A DNA stretch of 64,000 bases from Halobacteriovorax sp. GB3 (GTDB taxonomy: Bacteria; Bdellovibrionota; Bacteriovoracia; Bacteriovoracales; Bacteriovoracaceae): contig NZ_JAQSLN010000004.1 in assembly GCF_028649655.1 (NCBI RefSeq), forward strand, positions 248,001-312,000, read 5' to 3'. The notes below the pieces were generated by a model that saw only the letters and a program-made list of their open reading frames with translations, was not told the origin of the DNA and made no database searches. The first letter of the stretch is position 1, and each line of letters begins with the position of its first letter. A program made the translations under genes and the position numbers. Shown here piece by piece: positions 6,760 through 32,588 of the stretch.

Positions 6760-7666
6760 TCTTTATCCTTAAGGAATTAATTGTATCGTAATCAAAATTT
6801 TCAACATAGGTTCCGCAGTTCAAAGAACATTGTCTTAGATCACCATGATCTTGAAAATCACAGCAGAACATCTTTGAGAATTTAATAAAATCACTTATAA
6901 ATGCTAATTCACTTTCATATTCGTAAATAGAAGGAGCCTCTATTTCACCTCTTCTATAAATAAAAGAAACACAAGGATAAGCACGTCCATTTGAGTTAAT
7001 ATAAATTCTTTTAAACCATGGACTTTGCTTTATAGAAATCCCAGATTCGTACAAAACACTGACATCGCCAACAGAACTTAGCTGTCGTGGCGGTTCAATA
7101 TGTTTTGCAACTATTGTCGTATCTCTAAAGAGTAATTCTATACCGAATTTTTCAAATATTAAATCACGAGTGTGCTCAGCATATTCCTCATTTAATTTAT
7201 GTCTAGAATAAATGATCTCGATATCAATTTCATTTTCTAGTGCAAACTTGATATTCTCAAATACTTTTGAAAGGTTTCCACCAAGACGAGTTAGCTCATG
7301 CGTTCTTTGATCTGGTCCATCAACAGCAATTTGAAATGTTATTCCCTTAACTGTTTTTGTAATTCCTAAGAGCACTTCCTCAAGAAGTTCACCATTTGTG
7401 GCCACAAGGATTTTCGAATCATGAAAGCATTCGTTTAAGGCAGGCAAGATTTCTTTTATATTACTATGTTCAAGTGGTTCGCCATCATTACCACAAACAA
7501 ATAACTCTTTGGGGTGAAATTTCTTTAAAAGAGGTAGAATTTCTAGAACAGATAGCTCTCGAGCTTTACTTGAATTGGATTTAAGACTTTGACAGCCAAC
7601 ACACTGAAGATGACATGAGTTATTCAAACTTAATTCTATAAATTCAAAAAACTTATCATATTTCAT
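6752..7666 (-). CDS. Radical SAM protein
   Basis: The protein has 304 residues with cluster motif C18-x3-C22-x2-C25 (CHLQCVGC) and an ELFVCGNDGEPL segment in place of the usual GGEP loop. A C-terminal set of cysteines (CVSF, CCDF, CSLNCG) could bind an auxiliary cluster. The start at 7666 gives a one-base TAATG overlap with the upstream gene; an alternative 42 bases earlier would run far into that gene. It is less similar to the three preceding radical SAM paralogues than they are to one another. The substrate is unknown. Confidence 0.88.
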   Translation of the reverse strand: MKYDKFFEFIELSLNNSCHLQCVGCQSLKSNSSKARELSVLEILPLLKKFHPKELFVCGNDGEPLEHSNIKEILPALNECFHDSKILVATNGELLEEVLLGITKTVKGITFQIAVDGPDQRTHELTRLGGNLSKVFENIKFALENEIDIEIIYSRHKLNEEYAEHTRDLIFEKFGIELLFRDTTIVAKHIEPPRQLSSVGDVSVLYESGISIKQSPWFKRIYINSNGRAYPCVSFIYRRGEIEAPSIYEYESELAFISDFIKFSKMFCCDFQDHGDLRQCSLNCGTYVENFDYDTINSLRIKND

Positions 7667-8583
7667 TATAAAATCTCTAAGTCCCACATATCCATAAGAC
7701 GTTTGCAATTTTTCTCACAAATACGACAGCACTCATATTCAAAATTTTGAATCTTTTTATAATCTCCATCCCAAATATTTTTACGACTCTCTTCAAGCCA
7801 AATATAACAAGGATAGACCTTACCATGCTGGTCAATATGAATTGATTTCTTATTAAAGCTTCTACAATCAATATCGTAGTTCTTCTTACCCGTTAATTTC
7901 TCGGCCCACTTTCTATTTGCTTCGCGAATAATGAGATCATACTTATTTTTCAACTCAGGAGTTACAAGCATTTTATCGAGATTAAATGGATTTTTATAAA
8001 TCTCAGTTTCTCGTCTATACAATGTTTGAGTCAAATTGATATGGGAAAACTCATCCATAATCTCTGCCATCGATTCGCTTTCAAGATCTTCTGCATTATA
8101 ATCGAAGAGAATATGTTGGATATAATCGATCTTTGATTTACAAGACTCTCTAAAGGCCTTTGCATTTTTTCTAATATTTTCTAATGAAGTGCCTACGCGA
8201 TATATCTCATGTAATTCTTGTGTACTTCCACAAATAGTAAAGTAGACGCTATCTCTTTCTGTAAGAATTTCACCTAATTCACTCCACCACTTTTCATCAT
8301 GGGTGTCTCCATTCGTGCAAATTTCAATATGCCACTCTTTTTCAACTAAATAACGACAAAGGTCATGAAACTTCTTATAGAGTGTTGGCTCAGAAAACGC
8401 TCCTACAAGGTGAACATATTTACCATTTGGATACTCTTCTAATTGAGCAGCAATTTCACTTACAGATCTTTCATTATATTTAACTGTGATGTGCTTATAA
8501 TTACGAGCGCAAAGCGGACATCTAGCATTACAAGTACCAGTCAAATCGATTTCAATTCTTTCTGTTAAATCCTTAGCAAACAA
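7666..8583 (-). CDS. Radical SAM protein, tandem paralogue 3
   Basis: The protein has 305 residues, starting at a TTG preceded by a GGGG site and overlapping the upstream gene by 11 bases. The cluster motif is C18-x3-C22-x2-C25 (CNARCPLC). The C-terminal third reads IDQHGKVYPCY and then CCRICEKNC, a SPASM-like auxiliary-cluster region. The middle contains FTICGS-QELHE-YRVG and a DYIQH segment shared almost word for word with the next two upstream genes, so the three arose by duplication. The GGE loop is replaced by LVGAFSEPT. The substrate is unknown. Confidence 0.88.
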   Translation of the reverse strand: MFAKDLTERIEIDLTGTCNARCPLCARNYKHITVKYNERSVSEIAAQLEEYPNGKYVHLVGAFSEPTLYKKFHDLCRYLVEKEWHIEICTNGDTHDEKWWSELGEILTERDSVYFTICGSTQELHEIYRVGTSLENIRKNAKAFRESCKSKIDYIQHILFDYNAEDLESESMAEIMDEFSHINLTQTLYRRETEIYKNPFNLDKMLVTPELKNKYDLIIREANRKWAEKLTGKKNYDIDCRSFNKKSIHIDQHGKVYPCYIWLEESRKNIWDGDYKKIQNFEYECCRICEKNCKRLMDMWDLEIL

Positions 8584-9505
8584 AATCTAACCCCATGACT
8601 TCAATCAATTTCTGGATTCTCTTTTCGCACTTAAAGCAATCTTTGTATTTAAAGCTTAAAACCTCACCATAATCGAAAACATCTCCACTAAAGTGACCTG
8701 GTCCTTCGAATTCGGCATGTCCATAACAAGGAGAAATCTCTCCAAATTGATTGATATATATTTTCCTATCTCTAAGAGACATACATTTTATTTCTACTTC
8801 TTCCCCAGGAGAAGGTTTGATTTTAAAAAGAGCATCGATTGCTCTTTTTCTTTCATCTTCCGGTCGAACATCATTGCTATTAAAACTCTTAACGTATTCA
8901 TTAAATGTTCTTTGACCTTCTGTATCGACGAAATAAATTTTAGAAAACCGATTAATAATCGCTTTCATTTCCTTTGATTCAAGATCCTGTGCATTGTATT
9001 CAAACTTTATGTGTTGAATATAGTCAATTGGATGCTCGCAAGCATTTTTAAAAGCGCGATGGTTTTCCAGGATTTTCTCAAGTTTACTTCCCACTCTATA
9101 TTTTTCATGTAATTCCTGATTAGATCCACAAATAGTGAAGTAAACTTTATCTTCGTGCGATAAGATCTTTCCTAATTCGGCCCAAAACTCAGGGTTTTTA
9201 GTACTCCCATTAGTGAAAAGATCAATCGCAACTCCTCTATCAACGAGGTACTTACAAAGACCAAATATTTCGGGATAAAGAGTCGGCTCAGAGAAGTTTC
9301 CGGCCATATAAAAAAGCTCTAGATTTTCAAATTCATCTAATTGCTTCGTAATTTCACTAAGTGGACGAATATGTTTTTTAATCAAATGTTGAGCATGGGC
9401 ATAATTTCTTGTGCACAATGGGCATTGTAAGTTACAAGTTCCCGTTAAATCCATTTCGATTTCGTGGATATCTGATTTTTTAAGGCTTGTTATCTTACAA
9501 CTCAT
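8573..9505 (-). CDS. Radical SAM protein, tandem paralogue 2
   Basis: The protein has 310 residues. The cluster motif is C24-x3-C28-x2-C31 (CNLQCPLC), and YMAGNFSEPTLYP stands in for the GGEP loop. The FTICGSNQELHEKYRVG segment and the region up to FEYNAQDLES are close to those of both neighbours. The C-terminal part, INQFGEISPCY and CFKCEK, is SPASM-like. The ATG begins two bases after the stop of the preceding gene. Differences between the paralogues lie mostly in the residue range 190-260, which probably sets substrate specificity (inference). Confidence 0.88.
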   Translation of the reverse strand: MSCKITSLKKSDIHEIEMDLTGTCNLQCPLCTRNYAHAQHLIKKHIRPLSEITKQLDEFENLELFYMAGNFSEPTLYPEIFGLCKYLVDRGVAIDLFTNGSTKNPEFWAELGKILSHEDKVYFTICGSNQELHEKYRVGSKLEKILENHRAFKNACEHPIDYIQHIKFEYNAQDLESKEMKAIINRFSKIYFVDTEGQRTFNEYVKSFNSNDVRPEDERKRAIDALFKIKPSPGEEVEIKCMSLRDRKIYINQFGEISPCYGHAEFEGPGHFSGDVFDYGEVLSFKYKDCFKCEKRIQKLIEVMGLDFVC

Positions 9506-9507
9506 AT

Positions 9508-10449
9508 TTACCCCATTCTCTCTAATCCGTTATCCTCTAACATCTGAGTCGTAACGGCTTCACACTCGTAACAAAAATCATAGGTAAACTTATTTATCTT
9601 CGTGTAATCGAGATTAAATTTCTCATCTCCATTGTATATTCGATAGAGAAAGCATGGAGTAATTTCTCCAAATTGATCAATCGCTACAAATCTCTCCTCA
9701 AGACTTTTACAACGCATCTGACACTTCATCTCACCGCTTTTATTTTTCTGATAGCGCCTCTTGGCATTTTTTGCGATTAGATTATAAGATCGAGCTAACT
9801 CACTCGATAGCTTGATTTTATTATCCTCATCTTCTATGAATTTAAATCTTTCATTATAGGGAAGAGTATTAATATTTTCTTCTCTAGAAAACCTCGCCCT
9901 TATCGCTTGCATTTCTTTCGATTCAAAGTCTTCACTATTATATTCGAATTTAATGTGTTGAAGTGTATCAATGGGATGTTCACAATTATTTTTAAAAGCC
10001 CTATGATTATTTAGTATCTTTTCAAGAGAAGAATTTACTCGATACTTTTCGTGAAGTTCCTGATTCGATCCACAAATTGTGAAGAATACTCGATCACAAG
10101 GTCCCATGAGTGTTGCCAGTTCTGCCCACCATTTTTCTGAGTGAACAGAAGCATTAGAATATAGTTCAATAGCAATATTTCTCGATCTTAAATATTCAAT
10201 AATCTCTAGAAATCTCTTATGAAGAGTTGGCTCTGATATAATTCCGGCCATGCAGCACATTTCGATATTTGGATATTCATCGAGCTGTTTTTTAATTTCC
10301 TCTACACTTCTTTCATTATATTTAATGAGATGCTTTGCATTTTCATAACTTCTTGAACAAAGAGGACAGTCTAGATTACAAGTTCCCGTCAATTCGAGTT
10401 CGATTTCCAAAATTTCTTCTTTACTCAATTTATCAGGCAGCTTATTCAT
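9508..10449 (-). CDS. Radical SAM protein, tandem paralogue 1
   Basis: The protein has 313 residues from the ATG at 10449, chosen because a GGGAG site lies eight bases upstream; an earlier ATG at 10455 is too close to that site. The cluster motif is C24-x3-C28-x2-C31 (CNLDCPLC). FTICGSNQELHEKYRV and the following AFKNNCEHPID stretch are nearly identical to paralogue 2. The C-terminus has AIDQFGEITPCF and CYECE, as in SPASM or twitch domains. It starts inside the overlap zone with the upstream radical SAM gene, so expression is coupled. Confidence 0.88.
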   Translation of the reverse strand: MNKLPDKLSKEEILEIELELTGTCNLDCPLCSRSYENAKHLIKYNERSVEEIKKQLDEYPNIEMCCMAGIISEPTLHKRFLEIIEYLRSRNIAIELYSNASVHSEKWWAELATLMGPCDRVFFTICGSNQELHEKYRVNSSLEKILNNHRAFKNNCEHPIDTLQHIKFEYNSEDFESKEMQAIRARFSREENINTLPYNERFKFIEDEDNKIKLSSELARSYNLIAKNAKRRYQKNKSGEMKCQMRCKSLEERFVAIDQFGEITPCFLYRIYNGDEKFNLDYTKINKFTYDFCYECEAVTTQMLEDNGLERMG

Positions 10450-11494
10450 TGCCATTCTCCCTATTATAATCACAAATAGGATAATGCCCTCTGCGATAAA
10501 AATTCACATCTTCGATTTTTTCCCCACGAACAGGATAGAGTTCTTGCTCGCTTACAACTTTTTTCTCCACACCATCGCAGATGAAAAAATATTTACAATC
10601 AAAGCATTCTTTTTTCTTTGAATACGTGTATTCTCTCTTTCTTTTTGCTACTTCAAAATAATCTTTTATTGAGACTTCTTTTACTTCGAACTGATCAACT
10701 TCGTATGTCATTATATTCCAGTCATCACGATCAAAAATATGCTGATATACACCTACAACATATTTCTCATAGCCTTTCATAAAGCAATATGGGATGTAGC
10801 GTACATTGATTTCAATTTCGGGATTAAGCTTATCAATTGCCTTTTTGATTGATTCACTTAATAGATTATAACTATGTACTTCAAGTTTATTAGCATCTTC
10901 CCAGTAGTTAAGAGGAAGAAAATTTAATTGTTCTGGTTTTATCTGATTAATTAAATCGACATAGTGAGATTCAAGAAAATCAAAATTCTTATTTGTAACA
11001 GTGCAATTGATACGAATGCGAATTCCAACTTCTTTGCAATTTGATATGGCCTTTAAAATCTTTCGATAGGCCCCCTTGCGTCCAACAATTTCATCGTGAC
11101 TTTTTTCATCATATCCATGAACACTAAAAAGTAATTCTTTGAGACCATGCTGGAATGATTTTTTAGCAAAATCTAAATTAGCAAACTTAGAGCCATTTGT
11201 TAGTGCCGAAATATGAGTAAATCCCAGCTCATTACAATAATCTAGAATTTGAAACCAATCTCTATGAACGGCACTTTCTCCACCGCTTAAATCAACTTCA
11301 CTAATACCAAAGTCTCTAAGTTTCTTTGCTCTTTTTTTTATGATATCGACTGGAGTTATTTTATCGAGGTCATTGAGATAATAACAAAAATAGCACTCAT
11401 AATTACAGAATGTTCCTGTATCTAATTTTGCTCTTTGATTGTATTTATCCTCAACGAGTTTTAACCCTGTTGAGCTAAAAATATTATAATCCAA
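10442..11494 (-). CDS. Radical SAM protein with SPASM-like C-terminus
   Basis: The protein has 350 residues, starting at a TTG with an AGGA site seven bases upstream that overlaps the stop region of the previous gene. The cluster motif is C30-x3-C34-x2-C37 (CNYECYFC), followed by DLSGGESAVH with the canonical GGE loop. C-terminal cysteines in CFDCKYFFICDG are the likely auxiliary-cluster ligands. Of the seven in this operon, this is the most ordinary-looking radical SAM core. It is closer to general SPASM enzymes than to the tandem trio that follows. The substrate is unknown. Confidence 0.88.
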   Translation of the reverse strand: MDYNIFSSTGLKLVEDKYNQRAKLDTGTFCNYECYFCYYLNDLDKITPVDIIKKRAKKLRDFGISEVDLSGGESAVHRDWFQILDYCNELGFTHISALTNGSKFANLDFAKKSFQHGLKELLFSVHGYDEKSHDEIVGRKGAYRKILKAISNCKEVGIRIRINCTVTNKNFDFLESHYVDLINQIKPEQLNFLPLNYWEDANKLEVHSYNLLSESIKKAIDKLNPEIEINVRYIPYCFMKGYEKYVVGVYQHIFDRDDWNIMTYEVDQFEVKEVSIKDYFEVAKRKREYTYSKKKECFDCKYFFICDGVEKKVVSEQELYPVRGEKIEDVNFYRRGHYPICDYNRENGNE

Positions 11495-12392
11495 TATGTT
11501 TTCCTAAGATCTCTACGATAGGATCATTTTCATTTAAATGAAGCGATTCAAAGTCATGATCAATATCCCATTTTCTCCAATAAAGCCCCTTATCTTCATC
11601 CCAATAGTCTATATTATGATACACGACTTCTTTACCAAAATAATGGCATTCCGCGATCATACGAGGACTACAATCGAACTTTCGAGGTACAGGGGTATAA
11701 ATATAAGTTGAGAACTTTTCAAAGAGATTTTCGACCGGCATTTCAGGGAATTTGAAGCGCTTATCAAAACCAGTCGGTCTATTCTCTTTGTTTGTTAAAC
11801 AAATAAAATCTCCGTCGTATTTTTCTAAGAGATCGAAATACATCTGATCGGGAATATTTCGACAATTTTTTGTGCCATAGAGAAGATAGGCCTTCTCTTC
11901 TTTGATTGGTTTAATTAATCGTTCAAAATTAATCTTCTTCTTATAATCGATACTATTGAGACAATCGCGATAAATCCTCTTATCTTGCAAGATATAGACA
12001 TTCTCGTTTGTATTATCTTGCAGCTCTTTATCACCACAAGCAAAATGAAATGTCTTATGACAGAGGATGTGTTTTTTTTCCAGTGACTTTGCTCCACCAT
12101 CGGTGAAAAGAATATGATTTGCATGCACAAGATTTGGACGATTACAGAAGACTGTATTTCTCTTTAATTCTTCAAGTTCATCTTGGCCTACAATATACTT
12201 AGCTGTTACTGACTTTTGAAAAGTTTCCCAATCAATGTCTTCGGCCAGAAGAATTCCCACTCTCATATATTTTTTTAGATGGAAATAATAATCGATGACT
12301 TCATAAGTATGCCCACAAATACCATGATTTGTATTGCTCCAACTATACGTGATCCATAAATCGTAATTTTCCTTATCTAATCTTAAAATCAT
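11484..12392 (-). CDS. Unknown, possibly GT-B glycosyltransferase-like
   Basis: The protein has 302 residues from the ATG at 12392, one base past the TGA of the upstream gene; a GTG 18 bases earlier lies inside that gene. I do not recognise a family firmly. The C-terminal third, with YIYTPVPRKFDCSPRMIAE and a later GKEVVYHN strand, resembles the nucleotide-sugar-binding half of GT-B enzymes, where a conserved Glu follows a surface-exposed loop. It has no signal peptide or membrane segment. Its neighbours point to a role in modifying the same product. Confidence 0.55.
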   Translation of the reverse strand: MILRLDKENYDLWITYSWSNTNHGICGHTYEVIDYYFHLKKYMRVGILLAEDIDWETFQKSVTAKYIVGQDELEELKRNTVFCNRPNLVHANHILFTDGGAKSLEKKHILCHKTFHFACGDKELQDNTNENVYILQDKRIYRDCLNSIDYKKKINFERLIKPIKEEKAYLLYGTKNCRNIPDQMYFDLLEKYDGDFICLTNKENRPTGFDKRFKFPEMPVENLFEKFSTYIYTPVPRKFDCSPRMIAECHYFGKEVVYHNIDYWDEDKGLYWRKWDIDHDFESLHLNENDPIVEILGKHIGL

Positions 12393-12393
12393 A

Positions 12394-13197
12394 TCATTCC
12401 AAAAAGGCACTTATTAACTTATCACTTTCACTCAATTGATAATGAGTTAGTCCATTTTCTTTAATATCAGTATAGCGAATTTTTATACTATCCTGCACCC
12501 CTCTTTCAAAAATCCTGACATCCTTGCCATAATAGAAGCTCTCTGGAATGAGTCTATTATTAGTGTCCATATCTCCATCTTGAAAATAGAGTAATGTATC
12601 GAATTGCTCATGAAGTTTTTGATGATGAAAGCTTGGAGTCTTATATATTTTTTCTTTACTAGCGAATTCATCTGGGATTTTAATTTTATCGTAATTCATA
12701 GAATGACAGACAACTAAGGCCTTATCTTTCACAGAGTTTAGATCTAAATAATGTTCAAATGAGAATTTTAATATTTCATCGACATCAAAGTCTTGATAGT
12801 CATAATGACCATAATAGGTAATCTCTTTTGTTTTATAACGCTGAAGTCCGTTCGATTCATTTGCAAAAACAAGAAGCGGGCAATTAAGTAGATCACCAAG
12901 TAACTTCAAAGTATGAACGTCAAGCATCAAACATTTTATGGCCTTAAATTTAAAGATATCGACACTTCTTTGAATGGCCAAAATATCATTTTCTAAAGAA
13001 GGGTCAAATTGATATCGTTCTTTAAAGATAGCAATTGCCCACAGTCTTTGTTCCTGCGAGCAATTATGTAATATGAATTTAATATTTTTTTCAAACTTTC
13101 TAGCAAATAGGAAGTATTCGAAACAATAAAACAGTGTTCCATTGATTTTCCGATGTTCCTTAAGTGAATAGACAATGGTCTTAAAAGAATGTTGAAT
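12394..13197 (-). CDS. Unknown protein with non-canonical start (ATT or +1 frameshift)
   Basis: The reading frame is open from 13206 to the stop at 12394. It is protein-like throughout, for example GTLFYCFEYFLFARKFEKN near the start and LLVFANESNG later. There is no ATG, GTG or TTG in the first 73 codons; the first is a TTG at 12981, well inside the coding part. An AGAGGA site lies just before ATT codons at 13200 and 13197, so an ATT start of about 267 residues is likely. A +1 slip at TTT-TAA-G at the end of the preceding gene is the other possibility. The fold may be glycosyltransferase-like (N-terminal strand then helix). Its function is not known. Confidence 0.65.
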   Translation of the reverse strand: MQHSFKTIVYSLKEHRKINGTLFYCFEYFLFARKFEKNIKFILHNCSQEQRLWAIAIFKERYQFDPSLENDILAIQRSVDIFKFKAIKCLMLDVHTLKLLGDLLNCPLLVFANESNGLQRYKTKEITYYGHYDYQDFDVDEILKFSFEHYLDLNSVKDKALVVCHSMNYDKIKIPDEFASKEKIYKTPSFHHQKLHEQFDTLLYFQDGDMDTNNRLIPESFYYGKDVRIFERGVQDSIKIRYTDIKENGLTHYQLSESDKLISAFLE

Positions 13198-13789
13198 AAT
13201 ATTCCTCTAAAAAATTATTTGTTAGCTCTTCAATTTTCTCAGTGCATTCTTCTTCATTTACAAGTTTTCTAAAATGATTGAATTTCTGATTAAGGGCACT
13301 CACGCGATCAATTTCATCACGCATATTCAGATAGTCTTCAAGTTTTTGAATCAGTGATTCATCGCCTGTTTCTAAGATTTCTAGATATTTTTGTTCTCTA
13401 TTTTCCGCGGTAATGAAAAAACCTTTATCGGAAAGTTCATTATTAAGACACATGAAATTATAGAAAGTGAATCCACTAATAGAAGCTAAATCAGGAGTTA
13501 CTACCATACGAGCTTTCTTAAAAGCCGATTCACGAGCGTACTTCGTATCATTTTCATCTGCTTGAATAATTTTAATTTCATGTGGCATGACCTCTACGTG
13601 AGCGAGAGGTTTTGTAACTCTAATCTCTAGTCCCTTTGTCATAGCTTCTTTAATCAGAGCAGCTGAAACGGCCGATAGATTGAGTAGTTTTTCAGGTCTT
13701 TCTATTGAATCGAGTGTATGTGGATAAACATTCGTAACATACCAATATGATCCTCTATCTTCTACAGCTGCAACATCATACATCATCAT
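13181..13789 (-). CDS. Unknown protein of the radical SAM operon
   Basis: The protein has 202 residues and I recognise no family. It begins with three ATG codons after an AAGGGAAG site, 16 bases past the stop of the cysteine-rich gene. The N-terminal half looks like a mixed alpha/beta domain (YWYVTNVYPHTL, LEIRVTKPLAHVEV). The C-terminal half (about 130-202) is charged and helical. There is no signal peptide and only isolated cysteines. The stop context TTC-TTT-TAA-G overlaps the next frame by 17-20 bases. Position directly after the cysteine-rich protein suggests a partner or chaperone role, but this is only inference. Confidence 0.75.
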   Translation of the reverse strand: MMMYDVAAVEDRGSYWYVTNVYPHTLDSIERPEKLLNLSAVSAALIKEAMTKGLEIRVTKPLAHVEVMPHEIKIIQADENDTKYARESAFKKARMVVTPDLASISGFTFYNFMCLNNELSDKGFFITAENREQKYLEILETGDESLIQKLEDYLNMRDEIDRVSALNQKFNHFRKLVNEEECTEKIEELTNNFLEEYYSTFF

Positions 13790-13804
13790 ATTAATCTTCC
13801 CTTT

Positions 13805-14314
13805 TTAATAGTGACATCCACAATCATTGTGACAAGTACAAACAGCATTACACGCACAGTCTGTATTACAAATACAGTCTGATCGAATTGAGTTGTATTT
13901 ATTAACAATTAGTTGAATTTCAGTTTGGCGAATTTCATTACCTGTTACAGGCGTAAATGTTACTGAACCCATGTTATTTCCATCGGACCCATCATCAGCT
14001 GCGTTGAATGACTCGAGTCGATCGACAGGTAGCGACTTAGATGTAATTGCATTTGCCGGAGAGACATTGACACCTTGGCTTGAGTTTGAGTTTACAAAAG
14101 TATTCAATCCACCATAGTTTAAGGCATGAGCTCTATACGTCGTAAGTTCAGCCGCAATCTTATTTCTAAGATCATCGAGATCACTCTTTTTGATCGACTC
14201 TCCTACAGTAAAACTTTGAGATAAAGTTCTATTCGATGGACAAACACTTCTGTGTCCTGAGCATGTTGTTGTTCCGGTACTGTGATTGGTACAGTGCGCT
14301 CCACTACAGGCCAT
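13805..14314 (-). CDS. Cysteine-rich protein with C-terminal CxC repeat; candidate radical SAM substrate
   Basis: The protein has 169 residues. Four cysteines lie in the first 25 residues (C3, C8, C18, C25). A Cys-free middle contains a helical segment (SDLDDLRNKIAAEL). The last 23 residues hold eight cysteines as four CxC pairs spaced by three residues (CIC-CAC-CTC-CGC). It starts within the stop of the upstream SPASM gene, behind a GAGG site. From memory, Cys-rich CxC tails of this kind occur in some phage tail-associated proteins. Placement right after a SPASM maturase makes it a candidate modified peptide or metal-binding structural protein. No leader cleavage site is evident. Confidence 0.8.
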   Translation of the reverse strand: MACSGAHCTNHSTGTTTCSGHRSVCPSNRTLSQSFTVGESIKKSDLDDLRNKIAAELTTYRAHALNYGGLNTFVNSNSSQGVNVSPANAITSKSLPVDRLESFNAADDGSDGNNMGSVTFTPVTGNEIRQTEIQLIVNKYNSIRSDCICNTDCACNAVCTCHNDCGCHY

Positions 14315-15512
14315 GTTCTACCTCTTTTTCTCTTTTTGATTTCATCATATTTGCATAAATATATTTCTGAACTGCTCTATCGATTTCACCAAATGTTTTA
14401 AAAAATCCGCAAAGTTCATTTACCCAATTATCTTTCCACTTATCAAAGAACTCTTCTTTATCACTCTTTTCATGACTGGCAACAGGACAAATCATACAAG
14501 TGGTAGCAACGCACTCCTGACATTCTTTTGCTGTTGACTGAAGTGGTTTTTCAAACTTTGATGTATAGGCGATGAGCTTTTCTACAAAGTCATCATCATA
14601 AATATCGGTATGTGCTAACTCTTCTTTGTGTTTCGAATAAATTGCTCCGTGACAAGCGTAGAGGTTCCCGCGTTGATCAATGGCGGCCATGTTATATCCC
14701 GCTGCACAGTGCTTTCTATTATCATCACCACCAAACCAAGAACAAAGATAACGTCCGTGCTCGCGGTAAAATTCAATTTCGCGCTTTGCAATTTTTAAAA
14801 ACTGCTTTCTAAATTCTTCAATTGCCCCTTGTTTTTCTTCAAGAGTAAATTTCGTAATGTAATCAACAGTCGGTGCATAATTGATATTGATTGTCGGAGA
14901 GACTTTCCAAAGTAATTCTTGAATTTCATAGAAATCGGTCCAACAAGAATAGATATTTTCCATGCTATCAATTGGTAACGTTGACTTTACACTAACGTTG
15001 ACACCTCTTCGTGCTAATTCATAGAGGTTATTAATAACCTGATTACTTGATGTCTTTTTATTTTTCGATAGACGGAAATTATCATTAATAGCTCTTCCAT
15101 CATAAGAGACTTGAACACGAAGCTTAGATAGATCGACATGCTCGATAATCTTATTCATATTCTTCATATTGAACGCATTCGTATAAAGATGAAAATCAAC
15201 ATTATCATGATTCTCATACTTCTTCATCAGCGTCACAATAAAGCCAGGGTTAAGCGTTGGCTCCCCTCCCCAAAGGGAAATATTTAATCCACTATATTTT
15301 TCTTGAAACCATTCTTTATTATCTAGAATGGCATCGATTCTTTTAAAAATAAGAGGAAGATCACCGTCAAGTCTAGCAGGGTCAACTTTCTCTCCTTCAA
15401 AGCAATAAGTACAACTTAAATCACAAAGCGCAGAAGTCGTGATTTCGAGATTGAAATAACCTTTTACTTTTTTATCTAATTTTCTATTTTGCTCGTTTAC
15501 TAAATCAACCAT
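14304..15512 (-). CDS. Radical SAM/SPASM maturase-like protein
   Basis: The protein has 402 residues. The cluster motif is C30-x3-C34-x2-C37 (CDLSCTYC), followed by ISLWGGEPTLNP. The C-terminal SPASM region contains HCAAGYN, a DQRGNLYACHGA stretch and CQECVATTCMIC, seven or more cysteines that would bind two auxiliary clusters. Such enzymes modify ribosomal peptides or activate sulfatases. Its start abuts the stop of the 72-residue gene, whose TAG sits within the ribosome site region (GGAGG). It is directly followed by the cysteine-rich protein, the likely substrate. Confidence 0.9.
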   Translation of the reverse strand: MVDLVNEQNRKLDKKVKGYFNLEITTSALCDLSCTYCFEGEKVDPARLDGDLPLIFKRIDAILDNKEWFQEKYSGLNISLWGGEPTLNPGFIVTLMKKYENHDNVDFHLYTNAFNMKNMNKIIEHVDLSKLRVQVSYDGRAINDNFRLSKNKKTSSNQVINNLYELARRGVNVSVKSTLPIDSMENIYSCWTDFYEIQELLWKVSPTININYAPTVDYITKFTLEEKQGAIEEFRKQFLKIAKREIEFYREHGRYLCSWFGGDDNRKHCAAGYNMAAIDQRGNLYACHGAIYSKHKEELAHTDIYDDDFVEKLIAYTSKFEKPLQSTAKECQECVATTCMICPVASHEKSDKEEFFDKWKDNWVNELCGFFKTFGEIDRAVQKYIYANMMKSKREKEVEHGL

Positions 15513-15731
15513 CTAATCCTCCAGGTCCGCGTTTAAAATTTCATCGAGAAGGCTATCTAATTTCTCATCTGAAACTTTCTCTTCCTCTGGAATAATAGAA
15601 TTCACAAGCTCCATTGCTTGTGTCGCTAGTTTTTGACCAAATTCAGGATCTATTCCACCAAGATGTTTGGAAGCTTCCAGTAAGTGATAAGCACCCAAGT
15701 ACATACTTCGGTTTAAGCTTTTAAGATTCAT
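15513..15731 (-). CDS. Small helical protein between two SPASM genes
   Basis: The protein has 72 residues, acidic in the second half (PEEEKVSDEKLDSLLDEI) and predicted helical by eye, with no cysteine. It overlaps the end of the upstream SPASM gene by 11 bases and abuts the start of the next. Small genes in this position often encode peptide-recognition partners (RRE/PqqD-like) or precursor peptides. I see no PqqD winged-helix pattern, and the lack of Cys argues against a thioether precursor. Function is not known. Confidence 0.7.
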   Translation of the reverse strand: MNLKSLNRSMYLGAYHLLEASKHLGGIDPEFGQKLATQAMELVNSIIPEEEKVSDEKLDSLLDEILNADLED

Positions 15732-16725
15732 AAATTTCTCTCTTCAAGAGCTCTTTAAACACCCTATTGTTTTTTAACTCTCGTGTCATTCGTTGCACTT
15801 CACGATAGAAATGTTTGTACATGGTGCAGATTTCATCAATTGGCCCTTCGTTCTTTATATTTTCAAAGAGACAACCCTTACGACAGTAGTTCTTAACTAC
15901 ACACTGCTCACATTCTTCCATTAATCTATACTCTTCGATTTTATCAACAAGATCGGAATTCTTAAACCTATTACAGGGAATTAATTTATTCTCCGTATAA
16001 GAGAGATGCTGATCACCAGCACCGCAATTATGAGAAGTGTGACCCTTAGCACCATATCGAATAACATGGCGAAGATAATTTAAAACAATCTTAGGTATTT
16101 CAACCTCATCACAGGAGTCAATGTACCAGTCCACAAGCTCGCTAAAGCCCTGATTGACGGCCTGTGCTTGCTCATAACTCCAAATATCAACATCACGAAT
16201 AAGTGTTAAATCTGGATTAAGCCCCAATTTCTCTAGAATATAGAGATGGTTTTCTAAGAGATTACTATTTCCAGGATCGATCATCGAGTGACACGCAAGG
16301 TCATTTAATTCACGTATGATTGGAAATTTCTTTTCATAGAGATGATTTGTTCCCTGTCCATCGTGCTGTATTCTTTTAGCATCTTGCCAAAGACCATCGT
16401 AAGAAAGAGATACCTTTACCGAGTAATCGTTAAGAAATCTCACCTTCTCTTCATCAAGTAATAGACCATTTGTCGGCATATAAAATTCGACTTGTGGATC
16501 AGAAGAAAGCTCTTTGGTTATGCGAACAATTTTATTCCAATGAAGGAGTGGTTCTCCCCCATAAAAGTCTATTTTGATTCTTTCATTCGGATTATTCCTT
16601 CTCACCTCACTAAATGAATGGAGAAAGAGATTTTCATCAATCGACTTTTTTGAAAGTTTATCGACATTGCAATAGGAGCAATTTAAATTACAAGCTTCAG
16701 AGAATGCAATGGAAAGTGTTTTCAT
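15721..16725 (-). CDS. Radical SAM/SPASM protein
   Basis: The protein has 334 residues from the ATG at 16725, which has an AGGAAAG site and lies 8 bases past the stop of the upstream gene; the longer frame starts inside that gene. The cluster motif is C12-x3-C16-x2-C19 (CNLNCSYC), then DFYGGEPLLHW. The C-terminal region has HNCGAGDQHLS, IPCNRF and CEQCVVKNYCRKGC, a good SPASM pattern. It probably acts on a peptide or protein, perhaps one of the two unusual proteins in the operon head. Confidence 0.9.
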   Translation of the reverse strand: MKTLSIAFSEACNLNCSYCNVDKLSKKSIDENLFLHSFSEVRRNNPNERIKIDFYGGEPLLHWNKIVRITKELSSDPQVEFYMPTNGLLLDEEKVRFLNDYSVKVSLSYDGLWQDAKRIQHDGQGTNHLYEKKFPIIRELNDLACHSMIDPGNSNLLENHLYILEKLGLNPDLTLIRDVDIWSYEQAQAVNQGFSELVDWYIDSCDEVEIPKIVLNYLRHVIRYGAKGHTSHNCGAGDQHLSYTENKLIPCNRFKNSDLVDKIEEYRLMEECEQCVVKNYCRKGCLFENIKNEGPIDEICTMYKHFYREVQRMTRELKNNRVFKELLKREIYES

Positions 16726-16733
16726 TAACTTTC

Positions 16734-17255
16734 CTACTTCACCTTCACCCAATGACGTCCATCAACTTGAATTTCTTTCCCTTCAACACCAAACGAATCT
16801 TTTGGTTCAGGCTTTTTATAAATTGCGATTAAACGCTCAGGGTAATTTCTCTTTTCTTCAAGAGTCATTTCAGTGAGATTTCCATTTTCATCATTTGTAA
16901 GAGGTGTTCCTGGATCATAGTCTTTATCGACATAAGCGAGCACCCAGCCAGCAACAGCAATCGGAACTTCACTTGCAGCATTTCCTGAGCCTACAGCAAA
17001 TCCAAAAGTATCAGAAGCAATTCCCATTAAACTCATCTGACATCTCTCAGTCGCAAGTCTTGCGCCTTCAATTGTGTCGATATAGCACTTACCATAAACT
17101 AATTTGTCATTTAATAACTGAAAGTCTGCAATATCATTCCAAACAGCATTCCAAACCCTAAAGGCCTTGAACTCATTTTCAAAATAAACATCAGATCCGG
17201 TATTTACAGTATGGGCACCATTAGCTGCGATTGAACAACGTCTAAAGTTTGCCAT
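16734..17255 (-). CDS. Phage-tail-fibre-like protein, first gene of the radical SAM operon
   Basis: The protein has 173 residues from the ATG at 17255, which has a GGAG site six bases upstream; a TTG 12 bases earlier lies within that site. The second half (IASDTFGFAVGSG, then PIAVAGWVLAYVDK and GTPLTNDENGNLTEM, then DGRHWVKVK at the end) resembles, by eye, the C-terminal peptidase_G2-like beta domains at the end of some phage tail proteins. It has two or three cysteines and no signal peptide. As first gene it is likely the most strongly translated. It may be a surface appendage subunit modified by the enzymes encoded behind it (inference). Confidence 0.75.
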   Translation of the reverse strand: MANFRRCSIAANGAHTVNTGSDVYFENEFKAFRVWNAVWNDIADFQLLNDKLVYGKCYIDTIEGARLATERCQMSLMGIASDTFGFAVGSGNAASEVPIAVAGWVLAYVDKDYDPGTPLTNDENGNLTEMTLEEKRNYPERLIAIYKKPEPKDSFGVEGKEIQVDGRHWVKVK

Positions 17256-17298
17256 AAATTTCTCCAATTATTCAGTTAAACTCAACTTTAAATTAGTA

Positions 17299-32220: not shown

Positions 32221-32588
32221 GAACCGAGTTAGAGAGACCATCGCCGGTGAACGTATGTTCACGGGAGGAAAGTCCGGGCATTGTATGGCAGCATAGCGGG
32301 TAACGCCCGTCCACCGCGAGGTGAGGACAAGTGCAACAGAAAGAAAGTACAGGGGTCTGAGGTCGTTTGGGTAGCGTAAGTGGGCCAAACATCGACGGTT
32401 CGTCCACCTGCTGTAGTGAAACCAGGTAAACTCTATGTGATGCAAGCCCAAATAGGCCTGTGCAATCTTCGGATTAGACGGCAGCCAGTCTGAGCAGGCG
32501 GGTAGGGTGCTCGAGCCAGAGGGTAATCTCTGGCCTAGATGAATGATGGTCCTCGACAGGACCCGGCTTACACTCTAGCTCGGTTTTT
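32221..32588 (+). ncRNA. rnpB: RNase P RNA
   Basis: The plus strand holds the conserved elements of bacterial RNase P RNA: GAGGAAAGTCCGGGC near 32268-32282, ACAGAAA near 32336, AGAGGGTAATCT near 32518 and GATGAATGATGGTC near 32538. The 5' AACCGAG pairs with the 3' CTCGGTT, closing the molecule. A terminal T-run follows. The RNA is the catalytic subunit that matures tRNA 5' ends. The exact ends are judged from the closing helix and the T-run. Confidence 0.95.

Follow-up and report, generated by a model that had tools for sequence, protein, structure and literature searches.

A conserved gene with a probable AUU start inside the end of its upstream neighbour in Halobacteriovorax sp. GB3

A long reading frame on the minus strand of Halobacteriovorax sp. 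GB3, within the stretch of 64,000 nucleotides analysed here (the window), probably encodes, at roughly three chances in four, an unfused protein some 267 residues long. Its translation would begin at the ATT at 13197-13195, guided by an AGAGGA motif, within a 17-nt overlap with the preceding gene. Judging from sequence comparison, this would be a further AUU-start gene, kept in two genera. The features involved are listed below.

12394..13197, minus strand: coding sequence (CDS) in its best reading, 267 residues, from ATT 13197, read as (M)QHSFKTIVYSLKEHRKINGTLFYC..., to the TGA at 12396-12394.
13195..13197, minus strand: proposed ATT start codon, conserved in the ortholog (L002, 1510-1512).
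13203..13208, minus strand: Shine-Dalgarno-like (SD) motif AGAGGA, 5 nt before ATT 13197, identical in L002.
13198..13200, minus strand: ATT 13200, alternative start candidate, not favoured (the ortholog has ACT, and the SD is only 2 nt away).
13181..13789, minus strand: upstream gene, 202 aa, ending in ...FLEEYYSTFF*; it shares its last 17 nt with the ATT-started CDS.
13181..13187, minus strand: C TTT TAA, the central part of the proposed +1 slip site, which in full is TTC TTT TAA G.
13179..13212, minus strand: predicted hairpin, with SD arm 13212-13201, loop 13200-13191 and 3' arm 13190-13179.
11484..12392, minus strand: next gene, with an ATG start just past the TGA of the CDS and orthologs in genomes G012 and G029.

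The frame 12394-13206 is open for 270 codons, from directly after a TAG at 13209-13207 to the TGA of the CDS, and its first ATG, GTG or TTG is the TTG at 12981, 75 codons in and 73 after ATT 13200. All stop-to-stop ORFs with 200 codons or more in the 390-kb contig (n=258) were ranked by the length of the lead preceding the first NTG; this statistic was used instead of a hexamer coding score, which was too weak for ranking ORFs. The 75-codon lead is the longest of the set, the next being 37 codons and the median 5, and it also tops the 811 ORFs of that size class contained in a 1.19-Mb sample, which makes up a third of the genome. A lead of this length is more than chance.

An ortholog (P0002, locus L002) is present in genome G012, from another genus of the family. 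The two align ungapped along the full 270 codons, at 51% identity. In the ortholog, too, the same frame overlaps the upstream TAA in the same way, and no NTG stands at the start. The gene order is that of the window, the ortholog lying between those of the 202-aa upstream gene and of the following gene. Between the two sequences, residues 9-75, which precede the first NTG, give a pS of 0.83 and a pN of 0.30, and the remainder of the gene 0.76 and 0.33; when the NTG-free stretch is read in the shifted frames, this contrast is lost (pS/pN 0.32/0.42 and 0.35/0.40). Two more homologs, P0003 and P0004, with 36-37% identity to the CDS, were found in G029. Among the 368 genomes searched in the phylum, convincing family members occur only in the genome itself (G000), G012 and G029. 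Weak matches at L004, L005, L013 and L014 were discarded, being short; those at L004 and L005 fall within unrelated ORFs. The upstream 202-aa protein has counterparts of 76% identity in G012 and 38-42% in G029.

On these comparative grounds, 12394-13206 is a real conserved gene, with a coding frame before TTG 12981. The original prediction of a protein-like frame, open for 73 codons ahead of that TTG, is borne out by both the ORF count and the ortholog substitutions, and a homolog with a canonical start near 12981, which it had named as refuting evidence, is absent from the homologs found. A decayed or untranslated frame, produced by a recent loss of the start codon or by a sequencing error, would fit the lack of a canonical start, but it is very improbable, given the layout common to two genera, the ungapped alignment at 51% identity and the purifying type of the substitutions. 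Neither a pseudogene nor a sequencing error is likely, because the substitutions are protein-like upstream of 12981 and two genera have this layout; its recurrence in the second genus also makes the suspected error at 13181-13200 very unlikely.

The G029 homologs help to locate the start. P0003 and P0004 share the sequence MKNILY, and P0003 opens with ATG AAA AAT ATT, its ATG being aligned to residue 8; in P0004, an in-frame ATG located further upstream gives an extension with no counterpart in P0003. Since the G029 homologs begin with an ATG at the residue-8 position, residues from K9 onward belong to the protein, and the start must therefore be at or before residue 9. The invariant residues of the family near the start are K9, I11, Y13, H18, K20, N22 and G23, and a structure model of low confidence has its first strand at residues 8-14.

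Up to residue 9, the codons are AGG AAT ATT ATT CAA CAT TCT TTT AAG in the window and AGG ACT ACT ATT CAA CAT TCT TCT AAA in the ortholog. No canonical start fits the conserved N-terminus, as is the case for AUU-initiated bacterial genes, and ATT 13197 (1510 in L002) is the sole near-cognate start common to both orthologs at or before residue 9. Initiation at an ATT had been proposed for both 13200 and 13197: the proposal is supported for 13197, kept in the ortholog, and not for 13200, where the ortholog has ACT. Of the two products proposed, the unfused one of about 267 residues appears favoured, the homologs being unfused and ATT 13197 conserved.

The AGAGGA reported just ahead of the two ATT codons is indeed located at 13208-13203, and the combination of an AUU with a suitably spaced SD is kept in the orthologs, which are only two. 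Pairing with a generic anti-SD sequence is predicted at -5.8 kcal/mol, a value that some 7% of 20-mers drawn at random from the contig also reach. The motif is missing at the corresponding point in the G029 homologs of the upstream gene, which are not followed by a homolog of the CDS.

A restart just past the TAA, at ATT 13176 (residue 11), by SD-less termination-reinitiation, is improbable. Restarting near stops is common, and this ATT is kept in both orthologs; the window has it 4 nt past the stop, L002 within 1-4 nt. However, no SD is available there (-0.4 and -0.3 kcal/mol), and the product would drop K9, which is conserved in all four homologs. Furthermore, Ile-11 is an invariant internal residue, also encoded by ATT in a G029 homolog; the conservation of ATT 13176 is explained by the protein, because Ile-11 is invariant inside the homologs.

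A +1 programmed frameshift, similar to that of prfB, would append the CDS frame to the upstream protein of 202 residues. As originally described, the preceding gene does end in TTC TTT TAA G (ACA TTC TTT TAA G, stop at 13183-13181), so that a TTT-to-TTT slip at the stop is present in the window, and the machinery is present, since the canonical AGGAGG TCA CTT TGA occurs in the prfB gene of this genome. The site of the ortholog is instead TTC TTC TAA A, where shifting by +1, from UUC to UCU, disrupts the middle base pair; a conserved slip codon, able to re-pair in +1 at the stop, is therefore lacking (the window has TTT TAA, the ortholog TTC TAA). In prfB-type sites an SD lies about 3 nt ahead of the slip codon, as in prfB of the same genome, whereas in the window the distance is 18 nt. 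In G029 the homologs of both proteins are separate, one homolog of the upstream protein ending in FLTKFYSHF* at the same place, unfused. With the slippery TTT-TTT lost in the ortholog, the SD away from the prfB spacing and the homologs unfused, the proposed fusion is disfavoured as a quite unlikely reading, marginally less probable than reinitiation at 13176. Like prfB, the CDS has a +1 frame overlapping a stop, but its site, where the stop is UAA G, contains neither CUU UGA nor an SD at 3 nt, and the slip is unconserved.

In the AUU-initiation reading, the codon at 13197 would be decoded as formyl-methionine by the initiator tRNA, as in infC, and initiation would be weak, of low yield and limited by IF3. 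Low yield and limitation by IF3 have been described for noncanonical starts (PMC5472188, PMC2268962, PMC13009471). Since the start falls inside the last 17 nt of the upstream gene, translation of the CDS would probably be coupled to that of this gene: ribosomes finishing it would melt a small hairpin in which the SD is paired to the region of the upstream stop. Such a structure is predicted to fold in both species, with MFEs of -7.1 kcal/mol (window) and -5.6 kcal/mol (ortholog). In the window its loop holds both ATT codons, and its 3' arm consists of the last codons and the stop of the upstream gene. An SD-masking hairpin in both species is suggestive; its energy is not significant, being matched by synonymous resampling in 8-23% of cases (nulls 0.08-0.23).

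Some observations weigh against AUU initiation at 13197. The ATT-start layout is known in two orthologs only, and the overlap is also constrained by the upstream protein; between the window and the G012 ortholog, third-position conservation in the overlap is unexceptional (a run of 4, 41% overall). The SD is also moderate, at -5.8 kcal/mol versus -14.0 and -14.7 kcal/mol for infC.

The gene infC, coding for IF3, is the classic AUU-start gene and has an AUU, AUC or AUA start in many bacteria. It served as a control: in four of the four family genomes checked (G000, G001, G012 and G029; L019-L022) it shows an ATT start after a strong SD and no NTG. The prfB genes of the same four genomes (L023-L026) carry the usual frameshift site, GGAGGTC[AG]CTTTGA. 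One third of the genome was scanned without guidance for the longest protein-like NTG-free leads, which gave infC (84 codons), the present CDS (75) and C4:153558-154064 (72); two other long ORFs in that scan have later ATG starts and, by inspection, look ordinary. The CDS resembles infC in having an AUU start after an SD and no N-terminal NTG, but infC combines a very strong SD (-14 kcal/mol) with self-regulation, whereas the CDS has a moderate SD within the preceding gene and encodes no translation factor.

AUU starts that limit yield are found in two chromosomal genes other than infC, Escherichia coli pcnB and Staphylococcus aureus cvfC1 (PMC13009471). The CDS shares with them the type of gene, and the AUU of cvfC1 is also conserved, within its genus; both are supported by experiments, whereas the CDS is known by comparison and has no extended SD. 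Streptomyces sigR, which belongs to an operon with translational coupling, starts at a GTC that IF3 represses (PMC5472188). The likeness is a non-canonical start in an operon, likely acting as a throttle; the codon differs, and sigR comes first in its coupled pair. Apart from infC, few genes are known to have a conserved AUU start. Annotation pipelines limited to ATG, GTG and TTG would cut about 72 residues off the CDS protein, or overlook the gene. With a rare start kept by two genera in an overlapping pair, one can test whether operons fix their protein ratios by means of weak starts, through IF3 and coupling.

Two more genes of the family probably have rare starts. The 72-codon lead belongs to a conserved secreted-protein gene located outside the window (L048, G000:C4:153558-154064, minus strand), which has no NTG along those codons and has matches in 22 of the 59 genomes searched, its own included. 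Its start is probably the ATC (or the GTA) in CCC ATC GTA AAA. The start region overlaps the end of the upstream gene (...RLRGLFPS*). An identical sequence is present in G027 (L055); at that junction, relatives carry a GTG overlapping TGA (L067) or TAATG (L057). In G029, the homolog of the radical-SAM gene at 10442-11494 (L010, minus strand, around 1470) has no NTG at its start; its CTG AAC TAT AAC TAT aligns with TTG GAC TAT AAC ATT of both window and ortholog, and translation likely begins at the CTG. The CDS (AUU, two genera), L048 (AUC/GUA, two genera) and the radical-SAM gene (CUG, G029), besides infC, are the basis for a doubtful, tentative generalization: that, where genes overlap or abut, this Bdellovibrionota family recurrently employs AUU or AUC (and CUG) starts as a built-in translational throttle.

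As for function, the CDS protein gave no relevant match in Pfam, NCBIfam, PDB sequences or plasmids, and a Foldseek search with its model (pLDDT 51, poor) returned nothing below an E-value of 0.001, with weak matches to Asp1, TarM and an epimerase. Its C-terminal part resembles that of the protein of the next gene, 11484..12392 (BLASTP E 2e-4, 47 residues). The family is possibly glycosyltransferase-like, with GT-B as the candidate type, as the motif NNRLIPESFYYGK in the CDS recalls these enzymes. The region 7666-17267 (minus strand), in which the CDS lies, is a cluster of several radical-SAM/SPASM-type genes, parts of which are found in G012 and, rearranged, in G029. Within this cluster, a small Cys-rich protein (13805-14314, minus strand), ending in CNTDCACNAVCTCHNDCGCHY, could be the precursor of a ribosomally made, modified peptide. 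Elsewhere in the window, positions 32225-32586 (plus strand) correspond to a bacterial class A RNase P RNA (Rfam RF00010, 216 bits).
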